Shown piece after piece: positions 7,920 to 37,005 of a DNA stretch of 64,000 nucleotides. The number at the start of each line of letters is the position of its first letter. The first letter of the stretch is position 1. The position numbers were made by a program, and so were the translations under genes. The stretch covers positions 3,605,826 to 3,669,825 of the forward strand of contig CP138355.1 of NCBI GenBank assembly GCA_033584155.1, given 5' to 3'. The notes beneath the pieces are model-generated. The model worked only from the letters and a program-made list of their open reading frames with translations, was not told the DNA's origin and did not search any database. Source of the DNA: Candidatus Electrothrix scaldis (GTDB taxonomy: Bacteria > Desulfobacterota > Desulfobulbia > Desulfobulbales > Desulfobulbaceae).

Positions 7920-8580
7920 ACACAAAAAAGGCGGAACGTACAGGTTGACAGACCGGAACCAAGGAACCGGCGAGCACAAAGCTCCCCATACGGCCCGCCT
8001 AGCAAAAGAGCAAAGCCGAACATTGGACACAAAAAGGTCGTCAAAAAAAGAAAAATGACGGTGCGTCCGCCTTGGTTGATCGGGCTGTCAATCCCGGCCT
8101 ACGGATTTTGCCGCAGGCAATGGATAAATTACAGAGGGAACGAGCTGTGGTCAATAAAAAATATGATATGTCTCTGCCCCCTGTTATCAAGAGCAGGGAG
8201 ACACCAAAGGCGACAGGGGGGGCGACACCGGAAACGGGGTGTCTTTTTATAGCAATTCCCCTCTTCTTCAAAACCCCCACCCAAAACCCCCATACCTGGG
8301 GCTTATAAAAATGCACTCCGGGCCTGTCTCAAAGTTCAGATGAAAGCCCAAGAATGCCCCCTTAAAGTTTCGTTTTCTTCCCACCCAAAACTTTACACCC
8401 GGTTGAGTATTCAGGAGCATATAAAAGCATCCTTGACCATTTTGGACTATTTGAGCAGATTTTTTTTTACAGGTTTCGGTTTAGGTTTCCCCCCTGAAAC
8501 CTCTCTGAGTACGCACTTCAGGCGGGCAGCTCAACGGCGTAATGCAACTTCTTAAAACTTCACGCATTATTTCAGGACAA
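7920..8580. other. intergenic stretch with hairpins
   Basis: No convincing gene is visible. It contains GC-rich stem-loops (for example around 8190-8250, GGGAGACACC and GGGGTGTC motifs) and the third dispersed repeat at 8298-8347. A 78-aa open frame at 8072-8308 has no good start signal. Confidence 0.5.
8298..8347 (+). repeat. dispersed ~48-bp repeat, copy 3
   Basis: GGGGCTTATAAAAATG, then CACTCCGGGCCTG, then CTCAAAGTTCAGATGAAAG. This is the closest match to copy 2, with the same C-rich lead-in as copy 1. Confidence 0.7.
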
Positions 8581-31697: not shown

Positions 31698-32142
31698 TCA
31701 TCTGAAAAGGGGGCATGAAAAGAGGGAGCGATTCAGCCCGGCCTCCCGCAGGGTGGCCTGAAAAAGCAGCTCATGGGTACGCGGGGTGCAGGCCGCCACC
31801 ACCAGCCGGTTCAGCTTGTGCTCCTGAATGGTCTCGGTCAGCACCCGTTGCGTATCCTGGGAACAGGAATACATGTTGGCTGGCCAGGGTAAAAATTTCA
31901 ATATTCGGATCGCGGCCCGCTTCAACCAGCTTGGGCGCAAGGATACAGAGAGAACAGTCGTTGGTGGGAAAGGTCTTGTCCAGGCGGGCCATGACCCCAC
32001 CAATGGCCCCGGACTTCTCCACCAGATACACCTTATAGCCCAGTTCAGTGAGATCAAGGGCGGTCTGGACACCGGCCACGCCACCGCCGATAACCATGAC
32101 GGCTCCGCTGATCTTGGCGGCTGTTTTTGCAATTACGGTCAT
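31698..32142 (-). pseudogene. truncated heterodisulfide-reductase subunit A (hdrA) remnant
   Basis: From ATG 32142 (AAGGAG eight bases upstream) the frame encodes an intact HdrA N-terminus: the FAD-binding [15 protein letters not shown] and the conserved [17 protein letters not shown]. Near residue 80 the match breaks. The other frame then carries a later HdrA segment ([20 protein letters not shown]) that ends shortly after REAGLN. An internal deletion with a frame change and loss of the large C-terminal part leave about a seventh of the normal gene. HdrA bifurcates or relays electrons in sulfate reducers and methanogens. This copy is non-functional. Confidence 0.85.
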
Positions 32143-32267
32143 GAAGAGCTCCTTCGTACGTATCGGCACGGCCGCATTCCCATGCTCTACGAAGATGTAA
32201 TGCGAAGACGCAATACGAACACGCAGAGACATGGTTCCGCCGTTTGCCGGAGAAATGAATCAATTGC

Positions 32268-32399
32268 TCAGACGGCCCTTGTCCGTCTGATTTATCGTAG
32301 AAGGATACGTCGACCAAAGAGGTCGAAAGAAATCAGGAGAGGAGGCAAGCCGCTGATCTTACTCGCCGACCCAGACCGGGTCGGGTGCCGTTACGGCAG
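32268..32399 (-). ncRNA. candidate structured leader RNA, copy A (upstream of hdrA remnant)
   Basis: Read on the minus strand it begins with the hairpin GCCGTAACGGC. Next comes a seven-pair stem CCGACCC/GGGTCGG (32366-32372 with 32378-32384), a conserved CAGCGG/CTGATTT core, and finally the stem TCAGACGG/CCGTCTGA (32268-32275 with 32283-32290). The same elements in the same order occur at 36317-36444. It lies 126 bases before hdrA'. I cannot match it to a named riboswitch family. Confidence 0.6.
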
Positions 32400-32610
32400 C
32401 TTCATGTGTAGTGATGGGGTGTGCTCATGGAATATTTCTGTTGTGTAATAATTCAAGATCAACATAACAATAATGTAATACGACGGGAATTGCAAGAAAG
32501 AAAGGGTGGCTCAAGATATTGACTTTATCACTGGTGCCAGTAAAATGCGGAAGACTACCCAAAAAAACGTTTAAAATAATCAATCAACAACGCAAAAACA
32601 TAGTATTTCA
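32400..32610. other. AT-rich intergenic region between the PLD gene and leader A
   Basis: No gene is seen. The stretch presumably holds the promoter for leader A and the 3' end of the PLD-gene transcript. Confidence 0.4.
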
Positions 32611-33623: not shown

Positions 33624-34367
33624 TCACCCTGTAGCCGCCAACGCCGCGCCAAAGGCCCCAATGATATCCGGGAACTCCGGCACCAGCACCTGGGTGTCAC
33701 CGAGCCGCTCCTGGAGCATTTGCACCATACAGGGATTATTAGCCACCCCACCGGAAAAGGCCACAGTCTCACCGTAACCAGTGCGTGAAAGCATGGCGAT
33801 CAGACGAGTAACCACAGAACTATGCACGGCCCGCGCAATCTGCTCACGAGGAACACCTCGGTTTTTCATGGAGATCACCTCAGACTCGGCAAAGACCGTA
33901 CACATGGAGTTGATCTGCACCTCCTGCTCCGCAGCAAGGGCCGCTTGGCCGAACTCCGCTAACGGATAAGCAAGAGAAGCAGCCATAATCTCTAAAAAAC
34001 GCCCAGTACCAGCAGCGCATTTATCGTTCATCTGAAAATGAGCCACCTTGCCCTGAGCATTCAGGGTGATGACCTTGGAATCCTGCCCGCCCACATCAAC
34101 GATGGTGGTGCAGTCGGGCAGGTGATGACGAATACCCAAGGCATGGGCCTTGATTTCGGTGATGACCTGGTCGGCAAAATGCTCAGCAGCAAGATGGCGC
34201 CCATAACCAGTGGCAACTACCTTATCTGCCCGAAAATCGGCAATCATCTTTTCTGCTTGTCGATGGGGCTCAAAGCCGGATTCAACAATCCGATGATCCA
34301 CCAAGCATTCCCCATCCCAAACCGCCATTTTCACGGTCCGGGAACCGAGATCAACACCGATGTACAT
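33624..34367 (-). CDS. acyl-CoA dehydratase activase-type ATPase (DCCP reductase)
   Basis: The 247-aa member of the HgdC/BcrA ASKHA ATPase family is an ATP-driven reductase with a [4Fe-4S] cluster bridging its dimer. Visible motifs: VDLGSRTVKMAVWDG (phosphate loop), DVGGQDSKV, NDKCAAGTGRFLE with a cluster cysteine, and NSMCTVFAESEVISM with the second. GGVANN is the adenosine motif. It injects a low-potential electron into its partner, here the YjiM-type protein encoded just upstream. A REP-like block lies between the two genes. Confidence 0.92.
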   Translation of the reverse strand: MYIGVDLGSRTVKMAVWDGECLVDHRIVESGFEPHRQAEKMIADFRADKVVATGYGRHLAAEHFADQVITEIKAHALGIRHHLPDCTTIVDVGGQDSKVITLNAQGKVAHFQMNDKCAAGTGRFLEIMAASLAYPLAEFGQAALAAEQEVQINSMCTVFAESEVISMKNRGVPREQIARAVHSSVVTRLIAMLSRTGYGETVAFSGGVANNPCMVQMLQERLGDTQVLVPEFPDIIGAFGAALAATG

Positions 34368-34450: not shown

Positions 34451-35740
34451 TTAGTCACTCAGCTGTTCCAAAAAGGCCTCAATCCGAGTCTGCATCTGCC
34501 CCATATCCTCGGGGGAATAATCAGATTCCAGCGAGAGATAGGGAATTCCTTCCTTATCACAGGCCTCGCGGATCCGTACTTCCTCGATATTATAGGTATG
34601 GCAGAACTGGAGAGAGTAGTTGATAATTCCCTGGGCCCCGGACTCACGGAACTCCTTGACCACCTGGTCAATCCGCTCGTTATTGGGGGTAAAGCAGGAG
34701 CAATCAATTTCCTTGTAACGATCAGTGAGCGCGGCCAGCATATTATCCATACCAGTGACAGACTCATCGATCAGGTCCTTGAAATAACGGGTACCTATGC
34801 AGGATTCCTCGTTAACGATTACCGCCCCTGCCCCTTCCACCAGGTTATGCACCTTCCAGTTGGGCAGGGCCATTGGCGAACCAGCGACCATCACCCGGGC
34901 GCTCTTCTGTCCCTGGACCGTCACCTGCTGCGCGACCCGCTCGTCCAGCTCATCGCAGAGGGCGTTGAGCCTCTCGGTAAAGCGAACCGGATCATCATAA
35001 AAGGCGATCTGCTCAATGAGCAGGCCGTCTTTACCGGAAATCGGGGAAGGATTATGATGACGCAGGTTGTTCAACCGTTGCAATGCCTTGCGCTTATTAT
35101 TCATCAATTTAATCGCCGCCGCCAGATCAGCCTCGGTTATTTCCTTGCCCGTGGTCTCTTCCATCTTAACCTTAAAGGCCTTGACCTCTTCATGCCAGAG
35201 CGCAATGCTCTGCGGCTTCTTGGTCTGGGGAATCTCCATCACATGGGTGGGGATCAGACGATCCAGCAATTCCCAGGTCTTTTTCTTGGCATCACAGGTG
35301 GTCTCGCCATAGAGAAAATCTGCTACCTGAAAATAGGGACAGATTCGGCCAGCCTTAAAACCATAGGCTGACTTGACCATCGGGCAGATGTTACGAGGCA
35401 GGGTCTTTTCTGCATCCGGCACCGAGCCCTGCGAACCACCGCAGAGCCCAATGCATATACCACCCGCAGCAAGAACAATCTCTTCCGGGATGTAGACACA
35501 GAAGGTACCGACTACCGGTTTTCCCTCGGCTTTAGCCTCCACCAATTCCTTGATCCGCCCGCCGTGTAACTCAGCGATCATCTCATCAAAATAGGCCATA
35601 GCCTTGGGACGATTCTCCTGGCTGAGGAAGGCTTGCGCATAGACATCACCCAGCATCTTGCGGGCCTTGTCAAAACGCTCCACATCCACGTCCAGAGATT
35701 GCCACAGCTCCGGGTAGGCCTTGACTTCAAAATCACTCAT
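34451..35740 (-). CDS. double-cubane-cluster protein (YjiM/HgdB family)
   Basis: The 429-aa protein follows E. coli YjiM through its length. It shows VGTFCVYIPEEIVLAAGG (Cys81), LPRNICPMVKSAYGFK (Cys119), GRICPYFQ (Cys134), GETTCDAKKK (Cys149), DCSCFTPNNER, and the C-terminal SDYSPEDMGQM. Double-cubane-cluster proteins related to 2-hydroxyacyl-CoA dehydratases hold an [8Fe-9S] cluster and catalyse ATP-dependent reduction of small molecules; the physiological substrate is unknown. GGGAGG before ATG 35740 sets the start, although the frame is open further upstream. It follows the A-type carrier gene by 14 bases. Confidence 0.9.
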   Translation of the reverse strand: MSDFEVKAYPELWQSLDVDVERFDKARKMLGDVYAQAFLSQENRPKAMAYFDEMIAELHGGRIKELVEAKAEGKPVVGTFCVYIPEEIVLAAGGICIGLCGGSQGSVPDAEKTLPRNICPMVKSAYGFKAGRICPYFQVADFLYGETTCDAKKKTWELLDRLIPTHVMEIPQTKKPQSIALWHEEVKAFKVKMEETTGKEITEADLAAAIKLMNNKRKALQRLNNLRHHNPSPISGKDGLLIEQIAFYDDPVRFTERLNALCDELDERVAQQVTVQGQKSARVMVAGSPMALPNWKVHNLVEGAGAVIVNEESCIGTRYFKDLIDESVTGMDNMLAALTDRYKEIDCSCFTPNNERIDQVVKEFRESGAQGIINYSLQFCHTYNIEEVRIREACDKEGIPYLSLESDYSPEDMGQMQTRIEAFLEQLSD

Positions 35741-35754
35741 TTTCGCCTCCCGGA

Positions 35755-36108
35755 TCAACCGCAGGAACCGTTGCAGGAACAACCGCAGGAACCGCCATCG
35801 CCTCCTCCTGCCAACGGTTTTTCGCTGGTGATACTGAAACCACCACCGGAACAACCACAGCCGCTGCTGGACTCAAGATAATCTACCTTGATAGCTCCAC
35901 AGGTTTCTGTAAGGGCCTTTTCTACCAGAAAGCTCACGCCTTCCTGCTCAAAGCTCAGGTCATTTTCCTTGGCCTCATCAAGGGCCAATCCCAGGCTGGG
36001 TCCTGAACATCCACCGGACATCAGAAAGATGCGTACAGAGGACTCAATATTCTGCTGCCCCAAGTATTCCTTGATGTTTGCAATTGCTGATTCTGTTACT
36101 TCAATCAT
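35755..36108 (-). CDS. A-type iron-sulfur carrier (IscA/HesB family) with Cys/Gly-rich tail
   Basis: The 117-aa protein starts with the A-type carrier fold (MIEVTESAIANIKEYLG) and has the three cluster cysteines: one in SGGCSGPSLG and two in SSGCGCSGG. A C-terminal tail of about 20 residues, GGGDGGSCGCSCNGSCG, adds four extra cysteines not found in normal IscA. Such carriers deliver Fe-S clusters to client proteins. Being first in an operon with a double-cubane protein and its ATPase suggests a dedicated cluster supplier. The long leader upstream contains conserved structured element B. Confidence 0.85.
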   Translation of the reverse strand: MIEVTESAIANIKEYLGQQNIESSVRIFLMSGGCSGPSLGLALDEAKENDLSFEQEGVSFLVEKALTETCGAIKVDYLESSSGCGCSGGGFSITSEKPLAGGGDGGSCGCSCNGSCG

Positions 36109-36316
36109 GATTTTCTCCTGAAATTATTAATAAAGTTATAAACCGGGAAATACAAAGAACGAGATGACTCGTTCCGTCCCGAACAAATCCAAGCCGTCAG
36201 CCCGACAATGAGTTCAAAAGCAGAATACATTTTGAGAAAACATACTATTACAGAGAACACTCTCCAAAGATTAAGACAAGAGAGATTCCTGCTCGCGAAA
36301 TGCGCGATGAGATGGC
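36109..36316. other. leader between structured element B and the Fe-S carrier gene
   Basis: It holds the ribosome site of the carrier gene and about 200 bases of 5' leader. No gene is seen. Confidence 0.45.
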
Positions 36317-36444
36317 ATCAGACGGTCTTCTGCTCGTCTGATCTTCAGAGCGGGGGAATAAATTTCCGAAAAAATCAGAGGGGAGAGGTCACCGCTGTTA
36401 TATCCTGCCAGCCCCAACTGGGCCGGGTACCGTTTTACGGCCTC
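36317..36444 (-). ncRNA. candidate structured leader RNA, copy B (upstream of the Fe-S/DCCP operon)
   Basis: On the minus strand: GCCGT/ACGGT hairpin, CCGGCCC/GGGCTGG stem (plus-strand 36420-36426 with 36408-36414), a conserved CAGCGG and CTGATTT core, and the stem ATCAGACG/CGTCTGAT (36317-36324 with 36335-36342). Relative to copy A one A-U pair becomes G-C. Two pairs become G-U on the minus strand but A-C mismatches on the plus strand, so the minus strand is the likely RNA. Confidence 0.6.
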
Positions 36445-36612
36445 AGGTATATGGAGGAATAGGAGGGAAAGACATCATACAGTGATTAGGTGAGAGAAAA
36501 ATTGAGAGCTTTATATTAAAAATAAAGGTGCCACAGATTCAAGGCGATTGCAATGGAAAAGCGTAGGGATCCAAGGAGCACCTACGCCTCTCCAATACGA
36601 TAACACCCTGTT

Positions 36613-37005
36613 CTAACTTTTATTCACAAGAGTAATCTGATCATTGAGTGTCCAGAGATCATAGAGAATACCTAAACCGAACAGCCCTACAGTGAAAAGG
36701 TAGATAATCCCGCTCACCCATTTTCCCATGTACATACGGTGGATCCCAAAGGCACCCAAAAAAACCAGGAAAATCCAGCAGAGGTTGTAATCTATAGGAC
36801 CAGGAGCAAAGCGCAGATCAGCCTCACTATCCATGCCGGGAATCAGAAAAAGATCAACAATCCAACCAATACCGAGCAGCCCCAGGGTGAAAAAATAAAT
36901 GGTACCGGAAATCGGTTTGCCGTAATAAAAGCGATGCATTCCCATGAAACCAAAAATCCAGAGAATGTATCCTATTGTTACACTATGCGTGTCACGCTTA
37001 CTCAT
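36613..37005 (-). CDS. TM2-domain membrane protein
   Basis: A 130-aa protein with two TM2 units. Each is a pair of hydrophobic helices with the family pattern: GFMGMHRFYYGKPISGTIYF then GLLGIGWIVDLFLIPG, and GAFGIHRMYMGKWVSGIIYL then GLFGLGILYDLW. TM2 proteins are small inner-membrane proteins of unknown role. AGGAGAG lies before ATG 37005 (a TTG two codons earlier is not favoured). Its 3' end is free of a clear terminator. Confidence 0.85.
   Translation of the reverse strand: MSKRDTHSVTIGYILWIFGFMGMHRFYYGKPISGTIYFFTLGLLGIGWIVDLFLIPGMDSEADLRFAPGPIDYNLCWIFLVFLGAFGIHRMYMGKWVSGIIYLFTVGLFGLGILYDLWTLNDQITLVNKS

Follow-up and report, generated by a model that had tools for sequence, protein, structure and literature searches.

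The structured RNA leader that occurs twice in the window, the whole 64,000-nucleotide stretch of Candidatus Electrothrix scaldis DNA analysed here, is probably a selenium-status leader, or selenocysteine attenuator. In its fuller form, which we hold with moderate confidence, the proposal is that the leader acts in cis as a sensor of the 21st amino acid: SECIS-directed decoding of a UGA codon would flip a covarying four-strand switch and thereby shut off a regulon of cysteine-containing (Cys) backup enzymes, namely HdrA, MvhD, an Fdh-like protein and HesB-DCCP, in the cable bacteria and other Desulfobulbales. Both statements are drawn from the comparison of sequences.

The two copies of the leader lie on the minus strand, copy A at 36317..36451 (a cmsearch match) and copy B at 32267..32410 (a covariance-model match). 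The original prediction, made from these two copies, held that they share a conserved core and the same order of hairpins, and that the substitutions between them favor an RNA of the minus strand kept by structure. The core, CAGCGG..CTGATTT, occurs exactly twice in the window, whereas 100 shuffles average 0.09 occurrences, the order of hairpins is common to both copies, and the compensating changes were borne out. In helix P4 (CAGCGGU:ACCGUCUG) a U-A pair of copy A is replaced by C-G in copy B, and two pairs that are G-U in copy A (P3 columns 29/43 and P5 columns 80/119) become G-C or U-A in copy B on the minus strand, the same two pairs being A-C if read on the plus strand. Helix P3 contains a further double change between the copies, from G-C to A-U. 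Folding of the single sequences was weakly better than that of shuffles (z -1.61 for copy A and -2.21 for copy B), and since this margin is modest, the two copies taken alone amount to weak structural evidence. Therefore, both copies were combined with a third one from the genome in a covariance model. The conserved-core pattern has 17 matches in the genome, of which 3 are real copies.

This first model recovered 4 copies at E<1e-7 in the organism's own genome (5.09 Mb, one contig), and matches at E<=0.1 in 15 of 73 genomes of the family, among them each of the 8 in the window genus. A second model, run across the order, gave matches at E<=0.05 in 37 of 257 genomes and reached other families. 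As real we accepted those at E<1e-8, which leaves 17 genomes: the 8 of the genus along with G044, G057, G097, G098, G100, G102, G109, G222 and G233. Weaker rows were dropped, with the exception of G233:C22 (E 1.6e-4), which was retained as L076 because it precedes hesB. Ten further rows were left out (L033-L037, L045, L046, L049, the minus-strand row of L039 and the plus-strand row of L030), and L038 was excluded since its motif is identical to that of L024. The resulting alignment contains 31 distinct copies, all from one bacterial order, Desulfobulbales, and its family-wide pairing and covariation, described below, bear out the view that a minus-strand RNA is conserved by its structure. A scan of the phylum with a further model, R3, gave matches at E<=0.001 in 2 of 395 genomes, both of the same order; absence elsewhere in the phylum is weak evidence because 8 candidates per genome were scored, and the family and order scans likewise used stricter filters. 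That the RNA belongs to no named class, as had been suspected, agrees with Rfam searches of the window and of seven other loci, in which no relevant family reached its gathering score; at E<=10, unrelated sub-threshold matches were all that was returned. As a separate observation, the window contains a match to the C4 antisense RNA (RF01695) at 7924-8005 on the minus strand (45.7 bits, cut-off 45); C4 antisense RNAs occur in immunity regions of phages of the P1/P7 type.

The genes behind the leaders form a restricted set. In the window, copy A is followed on the minus strand by a hesB/IscA-like gene of the Cys form (motif SGGCSGP; 35755..36108; NF038090 IscA_HesB_Se, 132.9 bits, cut-off 85), a double-cubane-cluster reductase gene, dccp (34451..35740; NF040772, 493.3 bits, cut-off 350), and a gene for an acyl-CoA dehydratase activase-type partner (33624..34367; TIGR00241, 219.5 bits, cut-off 125.4). 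Neither DCCP nor the activase is known as a selenocysteine (Sec) family. Copy B leads into a truncated hdrA of the Cys form (31771..32142, minus strand), which partially duplicates an hdrA locus that is intact elsewhere in the genome and has a leader of its own (G000:C1:3568259-3571330); a truncated hdrA behind a leader was also observed in a sister genome, G059 (L024). Leader B is separated from the DCCP operon by a gene for a PLD-like protein (PF13091; 32611-33567, minus strand), with weak likeness, below the cut-offs, to the DpdK/DrmC defence proteins.

Across the family, the genes directly behind the 31 copies are hdrA (13, of which 5 are truncated or remnants, two so judged by eye), hesB (11), mvhD (2), dccp (1) and a YafQ-like gene (4), so the copies do not lie in random contexts, and the cis-regulatory position before redox and Fe-S genes that had been proposed is supported by this gene context. 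In other genera a single leader precedes the whole run, as in L075 (hdrA-mvhD-hesB-dccp-activase, the last two named by their likeness to the genes of the window), while the window genus has it partly split, with leaders of their own before several of the pieces; the Fdh-like gene follows mvhD. A mobile or duplicated repeat without function might be suspected from the several copies per genome and from the position of copy B before a partly duplicated, truncated hdrA. Yet hdrA, hesB, mvhD or dccp stands directly behind 27 of the 31 copies and the helices covary, so that the gene context already largely refutes this explanation, and we regard its probability as negligible.

The YafQ-like gene (PF15738, 25.5 bits, below the cut-off of 30) found behind the remaining four leaders has no TGA form in the window genus. 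This small protein travels with the operons or has its own leader (L040, L032, L043, L044; L082:6486-6971), and in L040 its ORF starts with MSDYQ as MvhD does, so that it is perhaps a remnant of mvhD. Another observation concerns G044, where an ORF behind hdrA-mvhD-hesB (L087:1846-3385, minus strand) is SelB-like, as named from its sequence alone; if it is a true SelB, it would tie the operon to Sec decoding.

Most of the target genes are Cys counterparts of selenoproteins that the same genomes encode elsewhere. HdrA, MvhD/FrhD, FdhA and HesB all figure as selenoprotein families in two published accounts (PMC1794560, PMC13188914). In a search of the window genus (eight genomes) with stops read through, TGA forms were recovered in 8 genomes for HdrA, 8 for MvhD, 7 for HesB and 7 for the Fdh-like protein (molybdopterin half), and close TGA-free forms in 4, 4, 7 and 2 genomes, respectively; the genome with neither form of HesB is 69% complete. 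In the alignments of HdrA, MvhD and HesB, the TGA and Cys codons share one position, Cys standing where the TGA forms have U, and the Cys motif of the Fdh-like protein (RVCH) presumably corresponds to the FdhA position. The organism of the window has both kinds of HesB, its TGA form being located at G000:C1:1569128-1569460.

The leader follows this division. Among the Cys loci of the genus it is found at 4 of 4 close HdrA forms, 7 of 7 HesB and 3 of 4 MvhD; the fourth MvhD-Cys locus follows hdrA, so that its leader falls outside the DNA scanned. Neither of the two Fdh-Cys loci has a leader, both being situated behind mvhD with the upstream leader position outside the DNA scanned. At the TGA-form loci of HdrA, MvhD, HesB and the Fdh-like protein in the genus the leader was found in 0 of 30 cases, a count that, like those for the Cys loci, covers 69 of 72 loci (L146, L151 and L208 were left out). 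The same holds for the 42 HesB loci of the named genomes, 26 of them TGA forms and 16 TGA-free: a leader is found within 11 of the 16 TGA-free loci (E<1e-9) versus none of the 26 TGA-form loci (E<0.01), where absence is weaker at some loci because the upstream DNA is short (238 nt at L116, 461 nt at L131). No clear leader was found at five of the TGA-free HesB loci, L095, L097, L098, L130 and L132. Three TGA-form loci, L120, L126 and L103, have weak matches on the opposite strand (E 0.017, 0.65 and 0.76), and at L125 the strong leader stands before another copy of hesB, 1.9 kb beyond the degenerate one that was matched, in front of which there is a match of E 0.011 only.

Outside the genus, the nine leader-bearing genomes contain TGA-free close HdrA homologs (74-94% identical) in six cases and TGA forms in seven, the motif showing Cys in 5 of the close homologs and U in 7 of the TGA forms. 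Seven more distant HdrA TGA forms that were without the searched motif were excluded from the comparison of positions. The HdrA TGA form was not found in two leader-bearing genomes, G222 and G057 (84% and 93% complete). TAG codons that appeared within two HdrA-Cys genes are the terminal stops of these genes.

The leader itself begins with a short upstream ORF (uORF), present before the motif in all 31 copies and always ending in UGA, at motif position 6-7. An in-frame ATG or GTG lies 7-12 codons before this UGA with no intervening stop in 31 of 31 copies, compared to 969 of 9300 dinucleotide shuffles; the chosen starts comprise 29 ATG and 2 GTG, and the uORFs are 8-11 codons long. On translation, the uORF of copy A (36443..36478, minus strand) reads MMSFPPIPPYT followed by UGA, the candidate selenocysteine codon at 36443-36445, and that of copy B (32402..32428, minus strand) reads MSTPHHYT followed by UGA. 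The start signals differ between lineages. Shine-Dalgarno matches of at least 4 nt accompany 15 of the 31 uORFs, 11 of the 12 outside the window genus (one of these being GGTG only) and 4 of the 19 inside it; none was found at the 13 hesB- and hdrA-type uORFs of the window genus, copy A included. Moreover, the ATG of the hesB-type uORFs, copy A again included, overlaps a -10-like TATGAT (by eye), and hence the hesB-type uORF of this genus might lie off the transcript. A promoter scan of 36100-36700 gave no promoter-like site on the minus strand.

Behind the UGA stand the hairpin P2, assigned in copy A to 36429..36441 on the minus strand from family-wide pairing, and then the hairpin P3, which resembles a bacterial SECIS element (bSECIS). 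The published bSECIS model prescribes a loop of 3-9 nt with a G among its first two nucleotides, a stem of 4-16 bp, a distance of 16-37 nt from the UGA and a minimum free energy <= -7.5 kcal/mol (PMC13188914). With bulges allowed, P3 agrees with all of these in 30 of 31 copies, the exception, L031, passing through another hairpin only; with uninterrupted stems it agrees in 21 of 31. Of shuffled sequences, 183 of 920 passed with bulges, in a slightly different scan of shuffles derived from 23 representative copies that themselves passed in 23 of 23 cases, and 356 of 6200 passed with uninterrupted stems. In copy A the hairpin (CCGGCCC-AGUUG-GGGCUGG; 36408..36426, minus strand), which agrees with these rules, has its loop 23 nt past the UGA, and its counterpart in copy B, identified by sequence (CCGACCC-GGUCU-GGGUCGG; 32366..32384, minus strand), has it at 24 nt. 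Over the family, the loops (GGUCU, GGUUC, AGGUU, AGUUG) are located 18-25 nt past the UGA, and GGUCU and AGGUU resemble those of the SECIS elements in the TGA genes of the window genus: GGUC at 27 nt in HdrA-U (by eye), AGGUA at 22 in MvhD-U and UGGAU at 25 in HesB-U. The likeness to bSECIS thus extends to a G at the start of the loop (first or second nucleotide), the spacing and an energy <= -7.5 kcal/mol. In contrast to bSECIS, which sits at an internal codon of a selenoprotein gene, P3 follows the UGA of a leader ORF upstream of a Cys gene, and a second hairpin, P2, intervenes between the two. P3 is a candidate SECIS, with a putative role in binding SelB and in directing the insertion of Sec.

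These features bear on the original interpretation, which had combined a structured minus-strand cis-regulator of redox and Fe-S genes with, as a plausible reading, a riboswitch for a redox-related ligand. The former part is supported; the latter gives way to selenium as the common factor, given that in every one of the 31 copies the uORF stops at UGA, that the hairpin behind it fits the bSECIS rules in 30 of them and that the genes behind the leader are mostly Cys isoforms. In favor of a metabolite riboswitch is the position of a structured leader, with its mutually exclusive folds, in front of redox genes; against it, the best conserved unpaired parts are accounted for by the UGA and the SECIS loop, and the targets are distinguished as Cys copies of Sec proteins, so that we give a metabolite riboswitch a very slim chance.

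Beginning about 45 nt past the UGA, four strands can pair in two ways, either a with a' and b with b' (helices P4 and P5) or a with b and b' with a' (helices P7 and P6). In copy A these strands, each assigned on the minus strand from covariation, are a (CAGCGGU; 36391..36397), which pairs with a' in fold 1 (P4); b (CUGAUUU; 36372..36378), the partner of b' (P5, fold 1) or of a (P7, fold 2); b' (AGAUCAGACGA; 36334..36344), the partner of b (P5) or a' (P6); and a' (ACCGUCUGA; 36318..36326), the partner of a (P4) or b' (P6). The two folds are mutually exclusive because a' is common to P4 and P6 and b' to P5 and P6, while P7 takes both a and b. In the 31-copy alignment, which was fitted to fold 1, that fold (P2, P3, P4 and P5) has 90.0% of its cells paired, double-sided changes in 12 of 26 pairs, and a covariation score of 0.247 against a shuffle mean of 0.184; when its partners are slid by 1-3 columns, pairing falls to at most 41.1% of cells and the score to at most 0.086. 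Fold 2 (P2, P3, P7 and P6) has 89.4% of cells paired, double changes in 12 of 25 pairs and a score of 0.227. Among the individual helices, P3 is paired in 96.3% of cells and P4 in 94.6% and 96.7% in its two parts. P2 is paired in 77.4%, with double changes in 4 of 5 pairs, counts that understate the pairing in hesB-type copies, copy A among them, because MAFFT offsets P2 there by about 3 nt (by eye). As the copies are related, all such cell counts are inflated and do not represent independent events. At alignment column 230, situated in a' and thus used by both P4 and P6, A-U replaces G-C with either partner in three copies, the pattern expected if strand a' has two partners.

A ribosome that read past the UGA would run for 14-28 codons to the next in-frame stop (63 in L031), which is a UGA in strand b in 19 of the 28 leaders where it can be placed; in copy A and its sister copy readthrough would end at a UAA after 14 codons. 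It might accordingly be asked if the uORF, the U and its readthrough extension simply encode a small selenoprotein, of about 23-40 residues in most copies, with the downstream RNA serving as its mRNA only. The UGA and SECIS are in frame, and many of the readthrough peptides contain a UxC motif (USC, UVC, UEC, UKC, UIC), as this explanation would have it. Against it, the peptides vary widely, the hesB-type copies are without UxC, the distances from the UGA to the strand-b UGA (63, 68, 69, 70, 72 and 73 nt) are not all multiples of three, and conservation falls on base pairs. The chances of this explanation appear to us slim.

Masking the RNA to 12 nt past the second stop raised the mean predicted probability of P6 from 0.35 to 0.83 in 28 leaders and abolished P4, which suggests that UGA decoding could select the fold; in three further leaders the masked footprint extends into P6 itself. 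The modeled effect is uneven. In 10 of 31 leaders P6 is already predicted at >=0.7 when the ribosome has gone no farther than the first UGA, and masking hardly shifts it in copy A (0.25 to 0.35) and L074 (0.04 to 0.06).

On the selenocysteine-attenuator reading, a ribosome would translate the leader ORF of 8-11 codons as far as the UGA. With selenium plentiful, SelB and Sec-tRNA on P3 would decode the UGA and the ribosome would run on to the next in-frame stop, crossing P2 and P3 and covering strands a and b, so that the RNA takes P6. With selenium short, the ribosome would be released at the first UGA, and P4 and P5 could then form. Expression of the downstream Cys enzymes would be lowered by one of these folds, on biological grounds presumably the P6 fold of readthrough, so that the cell would turn to the backups only if unable to make the Sec enzymes. 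That the Cys genes would be on at low selenium follows from this logic and from the precedent in Methanococcus discussed below. The output may be transcription termination (for example, by Rho) or translation. By eye, no U-tract follows P6, and a model of accessibility of the ribosome-binding site in 21 leaders gave no consistent change. In the 36100-36700 scan, 2 terminator-like sites were found against a shuffle mean of 0.6; both are minus-strand hairpins with U-rich tails, located in the interval that separates leader A from hesB (36205-36189 and 36175-36156), and in copy A the switch could act through them. Some further pairings were noted by eye. The hdrA-type leaders L018, L030, L041, L071, L074, L075 and L079 have an extra hairpin whose loop, UCCUUCU or a close variant of it, is complementary to the Shine-Dalgarno sequence that follows (AGAAGGA), and in hesB-type leaders UCUCC..CUGAU is complementary to AUCAGGAGA at the ribosome-binding site.

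The alternative that has to be weighed most closely dispenses with decoding: SelB and Sec-tRNA bound to the SECIS-like hairpin would act as a repressor, as at an operator, and the uORF would be incidental. Consistent with this are the standing of P3 among the best kept helices, the weak start signals of the uORFs in the window genus and the near-indifference of P6 to masking in copy A. There is, moreover, a precedent in Escherichia coli, where Thanbichler and Bock reportedly found in 2002 a SECIS-like element in the 5' leader of selAB and proposed repression by SelB/Sec-tRNA. However, a SelB operator has no need of a UGA with an in-frame start 7-12 codons upstream in every copy, nor of the Shine-Dalgarno matches that prevail outside the genus, nor of a covarying four-strand region in the path of a translating ribosome. 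We therefore consider it unlikely, while the small selenoprotein, the metabolite riboswitch and the functionless repeat each fit less well than it does. Selenium stays the signal both under repression by SelB and if the uORF encodes a small selenoprotein.

A tRNA-Sec is present in the organism's own genome (75.3 bits), but tRNA-Sec does not tell the genomes of the order apart, since matches above the cut-off occur in 215 of 257. A comparison of genera gives finer detail. In the window genus, tRNA-Sec scores better than 1e-13 in 7 of 8 genomes, the eighth, G062 (69% complete), having 5.0e-7, and in the genus g12, which contains Candidatus Electronema sp. KV (G057), all 5 genomes have weak matches, with best E values from 1.9e-8 to 6.2e-7. 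In g12 a clear leader is found in G057 only (L031, before hdrA), with a match at E 0.011 in G056, and in L031 the P3 loop is without a G in its first two positions and there are mismatches in P4 and P6. Before mvhD in G057 there is a fragment only, starting past the UGA and SECIS (L089/L097, E 0.0037), and at L098, the other of the two Electronema HesB loci, the match (E 0.045) is likewise partial and begins past them. This is the pattern that loss of Sec decoding would produce, stated without firmness as the genomes are incomplete.

The preferred reading, the selenocysteine attenuator, draws on several known systems. The selAB leader of E. coli similarly couples expression to Sec-tRNA and SelB through a SECIS-type hairpin in the 5' leader; it controls the Sec machinery and is not known to have a UGA leader ORF or exclusive downstream folds, whereas the targets of the cable-bacterial leader are Cys isoforms, and selA or selB is never the downstream gene in the 31 copies. 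As in the trp and his leader-peptide attenuators, the position of a ribosome in a short ORF would choose between exclusive folds; unlike in these, Sec-tRNA at a UGA would be sensed, and neither a series of control codons nor a clear intrinsic terminator is present. SECIS elements, leader-peptide attenuation and Sec/Cys isozyme switching are known parts; a literature search, largely outside subscription journals, returned neither their combination nor any Sec-decoding leader. A further parallel is found in Methanococcus maripaludis, in which Cys isoforms of HdrA and VhuD (of the MvhD family) are made when selenium is short (PMC11097638). The switch there is HrsM, a LysR-type protein repressor whose mode of sensing is stated to be unknown (PMC11097638), as opposed to the RNA in cis of the cable bacteria.

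The leader bears on the question of how cells sense selenium and choose between Sec and Cys isozymes. If the proposal is true, it would be a direct selenium sensor in which the ribosome reads charged Sec-tRNA, selenocysteine would join the amino acids monitored by attenuation, and SECIS would gain a further role. It would also mark which Cys genes are selenium backups, provide a selenium reporter and predict a selenium regulon in the uncultured cable bacteria.
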